From contig JAQVAV010000010.1 of assembly GCA_028690665.1 (NCBI GenBank), forward strand, positions 1 to 64,000: a stretch of 64,000 bases of DNA, given 5' to 3'. The notes beneath the pieces are model-generated. The model searched no databases, was not told the origin of the DNA, and saw only the letters and a program-made list of their open reading frames with translations. Positions within the stretch are counted from its first letter, which is position 1; each line of letters begins with the position of its first letter. Positions 31,680-56,288 of the stretch are shown one piece after another. The DNA comes from Paludibacter sp. GTDB lineage: Bacteria > Bacteroidota > Bacteroidia > Bacteroidales > Paludibacteraceae. A program made the translations under genes and the position numbers.

Positions 31680-33368
31680 ATGAATTGTAAATATATATAC
31701 AAAAGCATTTTTACATTACTTTTTCCGGCTGTCATACTGTTGCTGAATGGTTGTAATGACGCTGCATGGGAAAGTCATGTCGGGAATGATGAATTTGTAA
31801 AAAAGAACCTGTATCAGGCTATTGGTGAGAAACCTGAGTTGTCGATTTACTATAACGTACTGAAAAAAACAGGTTATAACGAGATTCTCGAAACATCGAA
31901 CAGTTATACGGTTTTTGCACCTGCCAATAGTGCATGGTCGGGAGTAGACACCAGCAGTGTCGACAATCTGACCAAACTGATAGGAATGACTATCGCGTAT
32001 AAAACATATTTTACGGACAATACCGAATTATATACAGAGGTAAAAGCCGTCAATGATAAAAATATTTTTTATGATGCTACTGATAAAACTTTTAACGGGG
32101 CTAAACTTATCGATCCCGATTACAGAACTTCAAACGGAGTTTTGCACGTTACCGATAAGATTGTAGAACGAAAGGAAAATATTTGGAGTTTTATTTCAAC
32201 CCTTACAGAAAGCAGTCAGTATAAATATATCAAATCGCTGAACGAAACAGTGATGGATGAAGATAAAAGTGTGGCTGTCGGGGTTTATCCCGATGGACGG
32301 ACCAAATATGATACGATTTGGAAAAACATCAATAATTTCTTGAGTGCTTTCCCAATTGATAACGAAGATTCCATTTATACTTATGTGATGGTTGAAAATA
32401 CCGGGTTCGATATGCTTTATACCAAATATAAACCATATTTCAAAATGAGTTCCGATTTAAGTACCGACTCATTGACCCGGTTCAACATTTGTGGCGATTT
32501 CGTATTCAACGGATTGATAGATATTACAAAGGTTGATACACTAGAGAATGTTTCCGGAGTAAAAGTTCCTTTAGCCGGAGTTACAATTTCCCGCACATAC
32601 GATGCTTCAAACGGACGTGTTTATGTGATTAATCAATCCAATATTCGTCTGAAAGATAAAATTAAACCGATTAAAATTGAAGGTGAAGATTTTATAAATG
32701 CTTACGATAAAAATTATGTTTTCACCCGCTACAAACGCTGGGCAAGTGGTGAACGCGATATTGCACTTTCCTGCGGAGAAACTCAGTCCGACTCTTTGTG
32801 GCGAAAAGTACCTCTGGCTCCCGATACTGTTGTGAAAAAAGACAGTGTAGCGTCAAAAACCTATTTTATTAATAGCAATCTGGTTGCTAATGTTGCTAAT
32901 TTCTACATCGAATATACGGCCAATGTAAACTCAACCAATTACGATGTTTACTATGTGGCTTACGATGATATTTCCGACCATTTCGATTCTACGTACACTT
33001 CCTATGGCGTTTACAAAGTAGTTCAAAAGTTATTTGTATCGATGCCGGGTGCTAAAAAACTTGTTCGCGGTACTACCGATAACGGGGCCGAAGTTGTCAA
33101 TAATTATTTAGGGAATATGATCTGTTTTGCAGGAGAGGGATATGCCGGGGTGCACGAACTTACCAAACTGAAAAAATGGTCACTGATTCAAGATACTCAG
33201 ATACTTGATACACCTCTGACTACTGCTGATGCTGATGTTATGTCGGTTGCACAAAGCGGAACAATGACTATGTGGTTATGCAATGCGGCCAGAAGTACCA
33301 CGGCCAGTCGTCAGGGTCTGCTCTTCCTGGATTATATTTTATTGGTTCCGAGAATTACTGAAGAATAA
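31680..33368 (+). CDS. FAS1-like surface lipoprotein with CBM-like C-terminus
   Basis: The lipobox LLNGC gives Cys25. Residues about 40-165 form a FAS1 domain (YTVFAPANSAWSGVD, NGVLHVTDKIVE). A second, weaker FAS1-like unit spans about 170-325, with RVYVINQSNIRLKD at its end. The last 230 residues (KIEGEDFINAYD through LFLDYILLVP) form a beta-rich region resembling a carbohydrate-binding sandwich, where the terminal 'LDYI.LVP' strand is typical. It is the second of two consecutive FAS1 lipoproteins between the two SusCD pairs and probably adds glycan-binding surface to the complex. The function is inferred from context. Confidence 0.75.
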   Translation: MNCKYIYKSIFTLLFPAVILLLNGCNDAAWESHVGNDEFVKKNLYQAIGEKPELSIYYNVLKKTGYNEILETSNSYTVFAPANSAWSGVDTSSVDNLTKLIGMTIAYKTYFTDNTELYTEVKAVNDKNIFYDATDKTFNGAKLIDPDYRTSNGVLHVTDKIVERKENIWSFISTLTESSQYKYIKSLNETVMDEDKSVAVGVYPDGRTKYDTIWKNINNFLSAFPIDNEDSIYTYVMVENTGFDMLYTKYKPYFKMSSDLSTDSLTRFNICGDFVFNGLIDITKVDTLENVSGVKVPLAGVTISRTYDASNGRVYVINQSNIRLKDKIKPIKIEGEDFINAYDKNYVFTRYKRWASGERDIALSCGETQSDSLWRKVPLAPDTVVKKDSVASKTYFINSNLVANVANFYIEYTANVNSTNYDVYYVAYDDISDHFDSTYTSYGVYKVVQKLFVSMPGAKKLVRGTTDNGAEVVNNYLGNMICFAGEGYAGVHELTKLKKWSLIQDTQILDTPLTTADADVMSVAQSGTMTMWLCNAARSTTASRQGLLFLDYILLVPRITEE

Positions 33369-33391
33369 AAAACACTTTTTGAAGAAGACTT

Positions 33392-36300
33392 ATGAAACAA
33401 CTTAAATATATTTTAGCAGTTTTAATGCTTACAGCCGGATTAAACCGTCCGGTCTTGGCACAGGAAAGTGTAAAACAAACTGAAATCTCTGGAACTGTTT
33501 ATGAATCGGCAACCGGCAAACCTGTTTCCGGGGCCCAGGTAATCATTCCGGGCATCACTTCTGTGCTAACTAATGACAGTGGTAAATTTGTATTAAACAA
33601 AACTGTCGCCGGGGCTTATATTAACGTCACTGCTCCGGGATATGCTCCTAAAAGAATTTCGTTAAACAACAAAAAAGTCCTTTCGGTTTATTTGTTGGAC
33701 GAAAGTTTTAAAGGAAACTATGAGGATATAAGCTTACCTTTTGGAAATAAAAATGCACTGGAAAATTCGTTTGCAGTTTCTTCGCATGAAAACAGGGACG
33801 ACTATAAAACAGGATTCCCGGGTATCGAAGGTATACTTCAGGGCAATGTAAACGGTTTGAATGTCCGTACCCGTACAGGTTCGCCGAATGCCGGAGCAAA
33901 TATGTTTCTGGACGGTATAAATACATTGAATATTAATTCTCAGCCTTTAATCGTGATAGATGGTATCATTTACGATAATCAGTTGATCTATTCACTTATC
34001 GGCGGAAATCATATTTCAGCTCTGTCTGATATTGATATTAAAGACATAGAATCGGTTACGGTTCTGAAAGATGGAACCTCTATTTATGGATCCAAAGGAG
34101 CGAACGGAGTAGTCGTTATAAATACAATTCAGGCAAGAACTCCGGCAACACGTATCAACTTTTATTCATATTTAGGAGTAAGCCTCGAACCTTCCAACCG
34201 TTATAGAATGATGGGGGCCGACGATTATAGAAACTATATTTATGATATGTCCTCTGATTACGGCTTAACAGCTAATCAAATTAATGCTTTACCATATTTG
34301 AATTCCGAAAAACCGGTAGTTGAGAGCTGGGGCGTTTCAGGAAATGAAGATTATTACCGTTACAATCAGTCTACCGACTGGCAAAATGAAGTTTTCCGGA
34401 GTTCGTTCAATCAAAATTATCATTTGAATATAACCGGAGGTAATGAATCAACGCTGTTAGCTGTAGCTGTAGGTTATATGGGGCAAAGCGGAGTTGTCCG
34501 GAATACCGATTATTCAAGATATTCGGCCCGGGTGAATGCAAATATCAAAATGAACGACTGGTTCAGGCTGAATGCAAACATTAGTTTTATTTATGCTGAA
34601 AGACAATTGGCATTTGAAGGTCTCAATCGTAACTTCAACCCGGCTTATGCATCTTTAATTAAGGCCCCTTTTGAATCTCCTTATATTTACAATGTTCTGG
34701 GAGAAAAAACGCCTAATTACGAAAGTGTCGATATATTTAATGTTTCCAATCCGACAATTTTAGTTAATTATCCTTCGGAAAATAACAGATTTCGATTTTT
34801 TGGAAATCTGAAAGGAGAGATTACTTTTTCAAATTATCTGAAGGCCAATATTATTTTTGGACTCACATCCGACAAGGTTACTAAGGAACAGGTTTTTATG
34901 CCTAACGAAGGTGTCACTCACGATATTTCTGCCACCGGTGTTATTACCAACGAATCACAACAGTTGCGCAACTCCCTGAATCAGGTAAATACTGACACAT
35001 ACCTGAGTTACGACAGATCGTTCGACAATATTCATAATGTATCGGCTCATGCAGGTTTTCGTTTTCAGTCGGGTCGTAACGAATTGGATTGGGGTAAGGC
35101 CTACAACACTTCGAGCGATGAGATGAAAACGCTTGGCGACGGTGTGAATGCTCTGGCTCAGGTTGGAGGAAACATTGGCAGCTGGAGGTATATTTCTGAT
35201 TATCTGAATGTAAATTATAGCTACCTGAATAAATATTTAGTTTCAGTAAATGCTGCTTTAGACGGGTCTTCAAGATTTGGAGCAGATGCGCAGGGTTTGA
35301 AACTGTTTAATCACGTGTTTGGTTTGTTTCCATCTGTAAATGCAGCCTGGCTGCTTACTTCAGAAGATTTTATGGGCAGTCAGCAGACTTTTGATGTGCT
35401 GAAAGTAAGAGTGGGATATTCAGTTACCGGAAACGATGATATTGGAAATTACTCAGCAAGTTCATATTATATTCCTCAAAGCTTTTTAGGAGCTTACGGG
35501 CTTGTAAGAGGCAATATCCCTAATGCTTCTCTGAAATGGGAAACCCATAAAAAAGCTGTTTTGGGTATTGATGCTTCTTTGTTAAAGGAAAAGTTGAACG
35601 TCAGTGTTGACCTTTATACCAGCAAAACCGAAGATTTGATTAATATTAAAAATTTGAGTACGGTTTCAGGATTTTCGGTAGCCCTGATGAATGATGGCGC
35701 TTTGCAGAATACGGGAGTTGATCTGAATATCAATGGCCGGATCATCGATCAAAATAACTTAAAATGGGATGCAGGAGTCAATGTGTCGACCTATAAAAAT
35801 AAATTGCTTTCTGCCTCAACAGATGAAACGTTCAATACCATAGTCGGAGGTATTATCCGTACAAAAGTTGGTGCGCCGGTGGCTCAGTTTTATGGTTATC
35901 AGACTAATGGCATTATTAGTTCTGCAGAAGAAGCAACTTCGGAAAACCTGAATATTAAAAGCTCGGATGGAACTTTGACTCAATTCTCTGCCGGCGACGT
36001 AAGATTTGTTGATAAAGACGAAAATCATATAATTAACAGCGAAGACATGACGGTAATAGGGGATCCGAACCCGGATTTTTTTGGAGCCCTGACATCAAAA
36101 GTTCAGTGGAAACAATTTAGTTTGAATGCGCTGTTTACGTTCTCTTACGGTAATGATATTTACAATGCGCTTCGTGCAAATCTGGAATCTTTATCCGGTA
36201 CCGATAATCAGACTATTGCGGCTGTTTATCGCTGGAAAACAGATGGACAGCAAACAATGACTCCCAGAGCATCGTGGGGCGATCCTATGGAAAATGCAAG

Positions 36301-50178: not shown

Positions 50179-50228
50179 AATAAGCCGAGTGCGACTTTGA
50201 GTCCGTACTCTGACTATTATAATTATTG

Positions 50229-50321
50229 AACGTTAATTTCACAAATTACACAAATCGTAAGTTATTGATAATTTAGCAATAATGTAAATTGAATTTGCGT
50301 GAATTTGTGAAATTAGCGTTC
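50229..50321 (+). repeat. Dispersed 61-nt repeat, copy C (with flanks)
   Basis: The core at 50249-50309 is exactly as long as copies A and B, but more diverged (CACAAATCGTAAGTTATTGA at the start). Flanks GAACGTTAATTTCACAAATT and AATTTGTGAAATTAGCGTTC are inverted relative to each other, so this copy can form a nearly complete hairpin. Confidence 0.75.
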
Positions 50322-50332
50322 TAAAATAAAGA

Positions 50333-53255: not shown

Positions 53256-53330
53256 AATGTGTCAATTAGTTAATATGTCAATATGCCAATGATATTTCTA
53301 CATTAGCATATTAACATATTGGCAAATTTT
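53256..53330. repeat. ORF-less inverted-repeat element between cimA and leuD
   Basis: The gap is filled by two imperfect inverted arms of about 27 bases (about 21 of 27 complementary), containing AATGTGTCAATT / AATTTGCCAAT-type ends around a roughly 20-base centre. The arm motif is that of the cassette around the intact four-helix-bundle gene, so this looks like a solo or deleted copy of the same element. Confidence 0.65.
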
Positions 53331-53917
53331 TACTTGCGTGAAGCTTCGTAAGCTTCGATCAGGTCTTTTTTGCTCAACAGATAATCGATGTCGTCTAAAC
53401 CGCTGAGCAGACATTCCTTTTTGTACGGATTAATTTCGAAGGATTCCGAGGTGCCGGTAGCGTTGTTGGTGATGGTCTGATTTTCCAGATCAACGGTTAC
53501 TGTCATTTTAGCATCAGAGTTCACTGCTTTGAAAATTTCCGAAAGAAATTCGGTAGAGACAATTACTGGCAATACACCGTTATTCAGTGCATTATTGCGG
53601 AAAATGTCGGCAAAAAAGCTTGATACCACCACTTTGAAACCGTAACCGGCTACAGCCCATGCTGCATGTTCTCGACTCGAACCGGAACCGAAGTTTTTCC
53701 CTGCTACCAACACGGAACCGCTGTATGCAGAATTGTTCAGAACGAAGTCGGCCTTAGGGCTTCCGTCTTTGTTGTAACGCCAGTCGGCAAAAAGATTGTC
53801 GCCGAAACCGTTTTTGTCCGTTGCTTTCAGGAAGCGGGCCGGTATAATCTGGTCGGTATCCACATTTTCGATAGGCAGTGGAACGACAGTTGATGTTAAT
53901 GTTATGAATTTTTCCAT
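53330..53917 (-). CDS. leuD: 3-isopropylmalate dehydratase, small subunit
   Basis: Partner of LeuC in the isomerisation of 2- to 3-isopropylmalate, and of citramalate to 3-methylmalate. Features are [14 protein letters not shown] near the N-terminus, the swivelling-domain loop [15 protein letters not shown] and [18 protein letters not shown]. Length 195 is normal. It is separated from leuC by about 500 bases that hold the four-helix-bundle cassette, whereas in most genomes the two genes nearly touch. Confidence 0.96.
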
Positions 53918-53923
53918 TTTTAT

Positions 53924-54423
53924 AATTTGCCAATGAGAAAATATGCCAATGTGCCAATTGTAGCGAAGATTCCGTTTTCGGAATATGAATTAACATGGAC
54001 TTATTTGCTCTTTGACGTATTAATTATACTGTTAATAATTTTTTTGTATTTCTTTTATCTCATCTATTAAAGATGCTTCGAAAGGGTAATTTTCAGAATA
54101 TTTGCACAAAAGCAACCAATATTCAGTTTCATCTGCCTCTTTTGCCGCAATTTTAAATTTATGAATGAAGTCTGCCTTACTTTCACAGTTTTGGGCTTCT
54201 CGTACATTTGCACCAATTGAAGTGCCACTTTTTAATATCTGATTAGAAATAACGTATTTTCTATGTTCTTCTAATTTTTCAGCATAAGCCACTATCTTTA
54301 AAGCAAATGTAAAAGACAAATCTACAATTCTGTTTCCGGTTTTTGGTAATTCACTCATAAATTCAATAACTTTTTCGCTATTTGTTCATTGGCACATTAG
54401 AATATTGGCACATTGGCACATTA
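53924..54423. mobile_element. Inverted-repeat cassette carrying an intact four-helix-bundle gene
   Basis: Arms of about 37 bases at 53924-53960 and 54385-54423 are inverted copies of each other at about 80% of positions. The inner AATGTGCCAAT (11 bases) and outer AATnTGCCAATG are the best conserved parts. The cassette fills the leuC-leuD gap: its outer edge includes the TAA stop of leuC, and the other edge is 7 bases from the leuD start. The only ORF inside is the four-helix-bundle gene, in the direction of the operon. No transposase is present. The architecture, a coding loop on a long stem, is like rRNA intervening sequences. Confidence 0.6.
54032..54358 (-). CDS. Four-helix bundle protein (23S rRNA intervening-sequence protein family)
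   Basis: An intact 108-residue protein of the S23/IVP family, named from ORFs inside 23S rRNA intervening sequences and related in fold to the Avd proteins of diversity-generating retroelements. Motifs are FALKIVAYAEKLEEHRKYV, the conserved QILKSGTSIGANVREAQ and DFIHKFKIAAKEADETEYWL. The biochemical function of the family is not settled, but basic pentameric members bind nucleic acid. It lies on the same strand as the leu genes, between inverted arms, and a frameshifted relative lies on the other side of leuC. Confidence 0.85.
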   Translation of the reverse strand: MSELPKTGNRIVDLSFTFALKIVAYAEKLEEHRKYVISNQILKSGTSIGANVREAQNCESKADFIHKFKIAAKEADETEYWLLLCKYSENYPFEASLIDEIKEIQKNY

Positions 54424-55812
54424 TATTCTCGGATCGGTGATTTTACCTGTCACTGCAGCTGCGGCAGCTACAAGCGGGCCTGCAAGAATGGTCCGTGCTC
54501 CCGGTCCCTGACGGCCTTCGAAGTTGCGGTTCGATGTTGAAACGGCGTATTTACCAGCGGGTACTTTGTCGTCGTTCATGGCCAGACAGGCAGAACATCC
54601 CGGCTGACGAAGCTCGAATCCGGCTTCTTTCAGAATGTCGTACAAACCTTCTTCACGAATTTGTTTTTCAACCATCCAGCTTCCCGGAACTAACCATGCA
54701 ATTACATTATCGGCCTTCTTTTTGCCTTTTACGTAATTGGCAAATACACGAAAATCTTCGATGCGACCGTTGGTACAACTTCCGAGGAATACATAATCTA
54801 TGGTTTTACCAAGCAGTTTTTCTCCTGGTTTGAAGCCCATATAATCCAATGATTTCAGAAATGAGATGCGCCCGGCTTCATCAATTGTGTCCAATGTAGG
54901 AATTGAATCGGTAATACCCATGCCCATGCCCGGGTTTGTTCCGTAAGTGATCATCGGTTGAATATCAGCGGCATTAAATTCGAGTTCCTTGTCAAATTTA
55001 GCACCTTCATCCGATTTTAAAGTTTTCCAGTAAGCTAATTTTTCTTCCCAAATTTCACCTTTCGGTGCAAATTCGCGACCTTTCACATACGCGAAAGTAG
55101 TTTCGTCCGGAGCAATCATGCCACCGCGGGCACCCATTTCAATCGAAAGATTACAAACGGTCATGCGTTCTTCCATGCTCATGTTACGGATAGCTTCGCC
55201 GGCATATTCCACAAAATAGCCGGTAGCACCTCCGGTTGTCAGTTTCGAAATCATATAAAGAGCCAAATCCTTGGCAGTTACACCTTCCGAAAGTTTCCCG
55301 TTGAAGGTTATGCGCATGGTTTTCGGGCGGGTTTGCAGAATACACTGGGTAGCCAGCACCATTTCCACTTCACTGGTTCCGATACCGAACGCAATGGAAC
55401 CGAATGCGCCGTGTGTAGACGTGTGACTGTCACCGCAAACAATGGTCATGCCTGGTTGGGTAAAGCCGTTTTCAGGGCCAATAATATGAACCACTCCGTT
55501 TTTCTGATGTCCGAGCGGGAAAAACAACGGCATGTTGAAATCAGACGCATTCCTTGCAAAAGTATCTAACTGATTCCGGGAGATCGGATCTTTTACCGGC
55601 TGATCCTGATTGATCGTTGGTGTATTGTGGTCTGCTGTCATGGTTGTTTGTTCCGGACGGAAAACTTTCAGTCCGCGAGCCCGAAGTCCGTTAAAAGCCT
55701 GAGGGCTGGTTACTTCGTGGCAGAAATGACGGTCGATATACAACTGCGTCGGTCCGTTTTCGACTGAAGATACAACATGTGCATCCCAGATTTTGTCAAA
55801 TAATGTTTTCAT
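54421..55812 (-). CDS. leuC: 3-isopropylmalate dehydratase, large subunit
   Basis: Aconitase-family [4Fe-4S] enzyme of leucine synthesis that works with LeuD. The start chosen is [14 protein letters not shown]; 19 upstream codons in frame belong to the flanking inverted repeat and look non-coding. Features are [35 protein letters not shown] with the first cluster cysteine, and [11 protein letters not shown] with the other two. The length of 463 is normal. The ATG is preceded by TTTTTTTTGACGAC of the second cassette, so its translation signal is shared with that element. Confidence 0.97.
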
Positions 55813-55821
55813 ACTTTTTTT

Positions 55822-56288
55822 TGACGACGGACAACAGACGACAGACAACAGGATAGTTATCATATTCAAATGTGTCCGTTTTTCATTAATTATTTATTCT
55901 TTATTCCTTTTTTTTAAGTACTTGGTTAAAGCATGAATTCCTGAAGAAATACTTTTAGATTTCTCCCGAAGTTCTATTGCTCTTTCGTTGCTACAATATT
56001 TCCTGTCTTTGGCAAGGTACAACATCCTTTTTACTTTCACCACAACTGGCTTTTGAAATGTCAAGATATTTAACAAACATTGCATCTGAACTATAATCAA
56101 ATCCTTTAGCAATGTTATTTATGACAGAAACTGCAGCCCTCTGAATTTGATCTTTGAATCCAAAATCTTTCATATTTTCGGTTAAATCATATATCTGATT
56201 TACGAAAATTCTGACATTTTGCCAAATTCTTAAGTTCTCAAAACTTTTCATTTCAGCAGTCTGTTGTCAGTAGTCTGTTATCAGATTA
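55822..56288. mobile_element. Second inverted-repeat cassette with a frameshifted four-helix-bundle gene
   Basis: The arms at 55822-55857 and 56253-56288 are inverted copies (about 20 of 26 aligned core bases), built on GACAACAGACnACnGACAACAG. The outer edge again includes a leu stop codon, that of leuA, and the other edge is about 10 bases from the leuC start. The arm sequence differs completely from the first cassette although the architecture and cargo family are the same. Confidence 0.6.
55894..56251 (-). pseudogene. Frameshifted four-helix bundle protein gene
   Basis: The first frame gives NLRIWQNVRIFVNQIYDLTE, GFKDQIQRAAVSVINNIAKG and KYLDISKASCGE, then loses similarity. The next frame resumes with VKRMLYLAKDRKYCSNERA and SISSGIHALTKYLKK, the normal C-terminus of this family. 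One extra A in the GAAAG run near 56034-56038 explains the switch. A sequencing error is possible. Otherwise the gene is inactive while its cassette is kept between leuA and leuC. It belongs to a different subgroup from the intact gene downstream. Confidence 0.8.

Follow-up and report, generated by a model that had tools for sequence, protein, structure and literature searches.

The gap between leuC and leuD in this Paludibacter sp. contig is filled by a unit of about 0.5 kb that is probably a mobile intercistronic cassette, built from two inverted arms of short-period repeats (mostly 7–8 nt) and one cargo gene, and resembling the intervening sequences (IVSs) of 23S rRNA without being one of them. 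The arms and the gene occur together as a unit at many unrelated sites. The cassette occupies almost the whole interval between the stop codon of an operon gene and the start of its downstream neighbor, and at a given site it can be missing or swapped for a cassette with a different cargo. Arm sequence turns over, yet the pair within a copy remains matched.

An inverted-repeat search of the 64,000-nt stretch analyzed here (hereafter the window) placed the upstream, leuC-side arm at 54388–54425 and the downstream, leuD-side arm at 53921–53958, both read on the minus strand. Each arm is 38 nt long, and the two are 84% complementary across a 429-nt spacer, close to the approximately 37 bases and 80% of the original prediction. 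Between them, an open reading frame at 54032–54358 on the minus strand encodes an intact 108-aa four-helix-bundle (4HB) protein, which matches PF05635 (E 1.3e-21, 77.3 bits vs a cut-off of 33.8) and TIGR02436 (E 2.7e-23, 82.3 bits vs a cut-off of 24). The upstream arm includes the leuC stop codon (54421–54423) and the downstream arm stops 3 nt short of the leuD start; the intact gene and the nearly exact filling of the gap are thus as predicted. The host genes, leuC (54421–55869) and leuD (53330–53917), lie on the same strand and, like leuA, were named by eye from their translations. Both arms consist of octad repeats of the ATTGGCAC type. In the predicted fold of the sense-strand RNA, the arms form the closing stem (−121.2 kcal/mol, z −4.75, with 0 of 100 shuffles equally low). 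Arm scores come from local inverted alignment of the two 200-nt flanks of a gene. This locus scores 23.0; among 271 background genes from a 400-kb stretch of its genome, which still include the one PF05635 gene of that stretch, two reach at least 20.

A second cassette occupies the leuA–leuC gap, also on the minus strand, with an upstream arm at 56261–56282 and a downstream arm at 55830–55851. Its arm unit, of the heptad type ACAACAG, differs from that of the leuC–leuD cassette, and the frame of its PF05635 gene (55958–56239) is broken by one in-frame stop codon.

A profile made from six proteins matched the structures 2rld (E 6.5e-40) and 2gsc (E 3.7e-19) of the Avd superfamily. Judged by these matches, the cargo at leuC–leuD is a 4HB protein of the 23S-IVP/Avd superfamily. 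Against PHROG, the window protein gave no match, and the protein of another copy, L001, matched "Avd protein of DGR" (phrog_3206, E 1.5e-5).

To see how far the plan extends, we turned to the genus, where PF05635 matches were found in 45 of 48 genomes (about 255 matches altogether). Our genus set comprises 97 loci: 8 from the same genome, 29 that the search gave directly as loci and 60 taken in the order of the listing, a choice that favors high-scoring copies. Among the 95 loci with enough flank for the arm test, arms score at least 12 in 84 (vs 9.5% of cross-locus pairs), at least 16 in 70 (vs 3.7%) and at least 20 in 42 (vs 2.1%); the other 11 fall below 12. The corresponding counts for the 271 background genes are 19, 3 and 2, and of the three reaching 16, two are, by eye, transposase-like genes with palindromes of their own. 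Small codirectional background genes (n = 26) gave 4 at 12 or more and 2 at 16 or more. The best period of 75 genus arms was 7 in 47, 8 in 13, 9 in 3 and another value in 3, with none in 9; after shuffling, 69 of the 75 had no period. No tight array with a period of 5–12 turned up in a strict scan of 400 kb of the window's genome, which indicates that its arms are degenerate. Two transposase-like genes on contig C2 of this genome (65209–65661, with a Y1_Tnp match, and 395037–395621, recognized by eye) are flanked by palindromic repeats of their own, which differ from short-period arms.

The genome of the window carries nine PF05635 matches in eight loci, and arm units differ between these loci. 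The expectation that the arms would recur around other copies therefore held for the plan, which recurs widely, and failed for the sequence, as the other PF05635 copies of the genome have other units. A single arm sequence for every copy in a genome can be rejected, since units vary by site. The unit family of leuC–leuD does recur with the same protein subfamily elsewhere in the phylum.

PF05635 is present in 157 of 198 phylum genomes sampled, 153 of them above the cut-off, and the 30 best-scoring phylum loci include 20 with arms at 12 or more and 11 at 16 or more (cross-locus 5.9% and 1.7%). When named genomes were scanned with the window protein, at least 593 stretches matched, and at least 487 of these encode a relative. 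The best 80 of these relatives form our named set, all Bacteroidota by record title, including Tannerella, Bacteroides, Dysgonomonas, Mucilaginibacter and Flavobacterium. Arms score at least 12 in 70 of the 77 testable loci; 51.7% of cross-locus pairs also reach 12, because the set is one subfamily with one arm family, and the within-locus statistic is accordingly not discriminating alone. The value of the set lies in its site spread, stop-codon position and period. Period 8 was found in 55 of 67 scored arms. The loci fall into 28 site groups if one common neighbor merges them and 39 if both are needed, counts inflated by loci at contig ends, and across these groups the subfamily goes mostly with one octad arm family.

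We compared the leuC–leuD gap at the 30 best LeuD loci of the genus, after searching 48 genomes. The original prediction had suggested looking for empty sites among relatives, and 13 of the 30 gaps are empty or nearly so (15–62 nt). Five hold a 4HB cassette or its remnant, and twelve hold a GxxExxY gene, each coinciding with a PF13366 match (two were checked individually). The empty gaps are too diverged to reveal a target-site duplication, and none was found by eye. On a LeuC–LeuD tree, four states (empty, 4HB and two GxxExxY arm types) require 13 changes vs a shuffled mean of 14.7. Shuffled labels were as low as 13 in 29 of 200 trials, so the states are little more orderly than shuffled ones on this poorly resolved tree (7 of 27 inner branches starred). 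One starred, that is supported, clade is mixed, with three GxxExxY loci, one 4HB locus and one empty gap. We found neither outcome that would count against the original prediction, namely the gene present in all relatives without conserved arms or arms that do not recur, because empty sites exist and the plan recurs widely.

The GxxExxY/PDDEXK_3 (PF13366) genes share the leuC–leuD site with the 4HB cassette and often lie within inverted arms, although they encode an unrelated nuclease fold. We fetched 30 PF13366 loci, three of them at leuC–leuD; of the 28 testable ones, 20 have arms at 12 or more and 15 at 16 or more (cross-locus 14.3% and 3.3%). These arms are weaker than 4HB arms. Their units are of other types (ACGCAAAT, ACGCGGATT, CCGCAGAG) with less marked periodicity, mostly without a clear period (12 of 16), and 25 of 26 assessable loci are codirectional with both neighbors. 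PF13366 gave no match in the genome of the window. One genus genome (G035) carries 17 PF13366 matches, several of them fragments, vs 0 to 8 in the other 47. Defense-system models returned no match for two 4HB proteins and only weak Cas4-like scores (E 0.003–0.01) for two GxxExxY proteins.

We next asked how arms and genes are related at different sites, using the 3352 pairs without detected flank homology among the 84 genus loci with arms. Arm similarity of at least 14 was seen in 47% of pairs whose proteins are at least 70% identical (n = 51), 30% at 60–70% identity (n = 73), 1.9% at 50–60% (n = 155) and 0–0.3% below. The Mantel correlation of arm with protein similarity was 0.49, reached in 0 of 2000 permutations (highest 0.073). 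Arm similarity thus tracks protein identity at unrelated sites, indicating that arms and gene travel together. Flank homology was judged on 800 nt, and contig edges cut some genus loci short, so that a number of the pairs counted as different-site may in fact share a site. Same-site orthologue pairs are also common (109 in the genus, one site being occupied in up to seven genomes), and much of the spread is therefore vertical.

At 14 sites common to at least two loci (55 loci), the match of an arm to its partner in the same copy was closer than to the equivalent arm of an orthologue in 153 of 218 ordered pairs, and the own-partner sum exceeded all 2000 within-site permutations. The two arms therefore change in concert. 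The 4HB protein is under purifying selection, with dN/dS of 0.03–0.38 for same-site pairs with dN below 0.5 and unsaturated dS. The domain is not generally basic (median pI 6.08; pI above 8 in 16 of 84), and charge alone therefore makes no case for nucleic-acid binding.

The copies sit in operons in a consistent direction. In the genus, 86 of 89 PF05635 genes are codirectional with both neighbors, compared to 171 of 267 background triples from the genome of the window; 8 of the 97 loci were left out of this count owing to contig ends or distant neighbors. The three non-codirectional loci are L007, L008 and L086, of which L007 is a miscall, its true neighbors cas1 and cas2 both lying in the sense direction. 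The PF05635 gene of L007 (same genome, contig C5, approximately 33250–33540) stands between cas1 and cas2 with octad arms of the TTCAATCC type and looks like a cassette inserted in a CRISPR adaptation operon. Of the assessable loci in the named set, 65 of 71 are codirectional with both neighbors, and in 48 of 60 the arm starts −9 to +12 nt from the upstream stop codon, often supplying that codon. Further host pairs include two methylmalonyl-CoA mutase genes, ABC transporter genes and, in G002, succinate dehydrogenase-type flavoprotein and iron-sulfur genes. Of 75 genus arms, 28 carry stops in all three frames (vs 15.7 after shuffling), as do 45 of the 67 arms from the named set (vs 24.7); arms supply stop codons in excess, but not as a rule.

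The plan is also present on cyanobacterial plasmids. A search with the L001 protein gave 22 plasmid records, of which 20 bear cyanobacterial names; we fetched 12, all cyanobacterial. Inverted arms score at least 12 in 11 of the 12 (cross-locus 12.9%) and at least 16 in 7 (6.8%), with period 7 in 9 of 10 scored and heptads such as AGCTAAA, GGTGACA, AACAGGG and GTAGGGA. By annotation, eight of the 4HB genes are sense to both neighbors, three (L319, L320 and L322) are antisense to both and one (L324) is mixed, the last being the only locus without arms. Neighbors include cas6–cas4 and cmr2–cmr3. In L319, the 4HB gene lies antisense between the two ribonucleotide reductase genes.

Among known systems, the closest likeness is to the 23S rRNA IVS, described as stem-bordered, excised by RNase III and parasitic (PMC4990558). 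Like the cassette, an IVS with an S23p/23S_rRNA_IVP ORF is a PF05635 gene between complementary arms in a transcribed unit, patchy in distribution and with empty sites, and its size is similar (428–444 nt in Coxiella; PMC4990558). The cassette shares its complementary, stem-forming ends, as seen in the window arms, their fold and 84 of 95 genus loci. It differs in lying in protein-coding operons, in its short-period repeat arms and in the purifying selection on its protein, compared to the decaying IVS ORF reported for Coxiella (PMC4990558). An IVS in the strict sense can be rejected, as the cassette sits between leuC and leuD, outside rRNA. Rfam at the gathering score gave no match in the window or in loci L204–L219, and a 23S search of five genus genomes gave matches only in G002, where 3 of 3 are full length despite nine PF05635 matches. 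The mobile intervening sequence of the original prediction is probably a mobile intercistronic unit that resembles an IVS in plan, and not an rRNA IVS proper. The observation at leuC–leuD itself is confirmed, including the plan of a 23S rRNA IVS, stem-forming arms around a PF05635 gene in a transcribed unit, within a protein-coding operon. Its earlier interpretation is partly supported: the plan was right, and the details were wrong in that arms are specific to site and subfamily, the leuC–leuD site also takes a second cargo, and a role in mRNA processing is not supported.

The swapped cargo at leuC–leuD has a parallel in CPR bacteria, where the same rRNA insertion sites are reported to carry IVP ORFs, homing endonuclease ORFs or inserts lacking an ORF (PMC11270868). 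Those insertions sit in 16S and 23S rRNA genes, and short-period arms go unmentioned in the available text of that paper, which describes PF05635 proteins as functionally uncharacterized. A PF05635 homologue from Xanthomonas is reported to form a ring-shaped oligomer (PMC4990558). PF05635 genes in cas loci were noted in 2013 as an interesting function under the name 23S_rRNA_IVP (PMC3936711); the cas1–cas2 and cas6–cas4 copies found here look like ordinary insertions. Transposons with terminal inverted repeats and MITEs share with the cassette its inverted ends, many sites and gene-less derivatives, whereas the cassette has no transposase ORF within it and no target duplication was found at the diverged empty leuC–leuD gaps. 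Moreover, its ends are tandem repeats that vary between subfamilies and are still matched within each copy. A Y1 transposase can be rejected as a fixed partner, since Y1_Tnp matches occur in 40 of 48 genus genomes; G032 has eight PF05635 matches and no Y1_Tnp match.

Short heptamer repeats have been described before. The STRR repeats of cyanobacteria are intergenic, 7 nt in unit length and able to form hairpins, and their function is called still not known (PMC2670836); heptanucleotide repeats in cyanobacteria also appear in a title from 1997 or earlier in a reference list. TAACTGA repeats occur in Beggiatoaceae and some Bacteroidetes, with Paludibacter propionicigenes among the listed species (PMC4679880). 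As described in the available portions of these sources, both kinds of repeat stand without a link to 4HB genes, whereas in the cassette such repeats form the paired arms of a gene. The arms of the cyanobacterial 4HB loci resemble STRR repeats (tandem heptanucleotides, intergenic and hairpin-forming); the window arms, with period 8, share the general form alone. The arms of locus L098 mix CAGTTAA and CAGTTAT, the latter being TAACTGA on the other strand. Among the papers listed in a literature search (titles and abstract openings, mostly in non-subscription journals), none linked PF05635 or GxxExxY genes to short-period inverted arms.

Three other explanations were weighed against the mobile cassette. 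The one that survives best is an IVS-like RNA device. Here the arms would pair into a stem on the polycistronic mRNA for RNase III, or a different RNase, to cut; the unit would serve to separate or tune the neighboring mRNAs and would be kept for this function, not as a mobile element. The arms do close the sense RNA fold, nearly all genus copies (86/89) lie in sense between codirectional genes, experimentally cut 23S IVSs are reported to follow the same plan (PMC4990558), and one site is kept in up to seven genomes. However, G.U mismatches between the arms do not exceed A.C mismatches on the sense strand (89 vs 112 at score 12; 88 vs 109 at score 14, p 0.15; 62 vs 63 at score 20; 12 vs 21 in GxxExxY arms), and sense-strand RNA selection is on this count rejected as the main force on the arms. 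The arm unit also follows the protein across unrelated host operons, 13 of 30 relatives have an empty or nearly empty leuC–leuD gap, and 3 of 12 cyanobacterial copies are antisense to both neighbors. We consider this explanation unlikely; the mRNA-processing device of the original prediction loses ground on the same mismatch counts and antisense copies.

It is very improbable that the unit behaves like a retroelement, with the Avd-like protein binding its RNA and a trans-supplied reverse transcriptase (RT) copying that RNA for sense insertion into transcribed DNA. The 4HB protein does belong to the same superfamily as Avd of diversity-generating retroelements (phrog_3206, for the L001 protein; PMC10053308, as far as its available text goes), and the sense bias in Bacteroidota is strong. 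Unlike a diversity-generating retroelement, the cassette has no adjacent RT, and the sole RVT_1 match of the genome is approximately 59 kb from the nearest PF05635 gene. RVT_1 was found in just 20 of 48 genus genomes, which rejects an RT as a fixed partner; G002, G012 and G037 lack an RT match and have 9, 14 and 7 PF05635 matches, and antisense copies exist in cyanobacteria. A purely RNA-level account is disfavored by the mismatch counts, the antisense cyanobacterial copies and these RT-free genomes taken together.

Least probable of all is that the repeats came first, host intergenic repeats expanding and inverting by replication slippage and 4HB or GxxExxY genes settling there or being tolerated, with no single element: gene-less hairpins with the same units and heptamer repeats described without a 4HB partner in Bacteroidetes (PMC4679880) and cyanobacteria (PMC2670836), in the available text of both, fit this account, but arm sequence tracks protein identity at unrelated sites, one octad family goes with one subfamily phylum-wide, and the strict scan of 400 kb found no tight array.

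Two such gene-less hairpins occur in the window itself, neither assigned a strand. One, at 53264–53328, lies between leuD and its adjacent gene and has octads of the ATTGGCAC type; the other, at 50222–50327, has ACGCAAAT-type repeats, like the arms of GxxExxY cassettes at leuC–leuD. The latter and a ACGCAAAT-type hairpin on contig C2 (382848–382970) have, by eye, a common loop core of approximately TAAGTTATTGATAATKTRGCAATAA, which looks as it might in a MITE-like family. Two similar gene-less ATTGGCAC-type hairpins, L015 (contig C24, approximately 237058) and L020 (contig C2, approximately 97921), apparently lie between tRNA-like sequences, also by eye. Four further loci (L027, L031, L014 and L019) are composite gene-less intergenic repeats with two unit types, some with a CATAACTTGTTCC-like core by eye.

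For the mobile cassette, we envisage the following mechanism. The cassette would insert as DNA at stop–start junctions, where it would do the least harm, and most persisting copies would be sense-oriented because the gene uses host operon transcription. The arms may then fold as a hairpin, in single-stranded DNA or in mRNA, and a ring-shaped 4HB oligomer may recognize the hairpin arms of its own cassette. This putative recognition is suggested by the joint evolution of the protein with the arms and by its kinship to Avd. Slippage and template switching at the hairpin could keep the arms periodic and alike.

More broadly, we tentatively propose a new minimal class of mobile element, consisting of self-matched heptad or octad arms and one interchangeable cargo (a 4HB protein or a GxxExxY nuclease-like protein), specialized for operon stop–start junctions and present in at least Bacteroidota and Cyanobacteria. 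On this proposal, STRR and TAACTGA-type repeats could be its arms or relics, the 23S rRNA IVSs a branch that settled in rRNA, and the PF05635 genes of cas loci plain insertions, with the cargo protein recognizing its own arms.

The cassette ties an unexplained gene family, PF05635, to an unexplained class of short DNA repeats. The family is widespread, and its name binds it to 23S rRNA. If 4HB genes and heptanucleotide repeats are one element, both questions become testable together, and annotations such as 23S_rRNA_IVP in cas loci (PMC3936711, in the part available) could be re-read as insertions. Operons could then be screened for a very small mobile cassette that spares genes on insertion.
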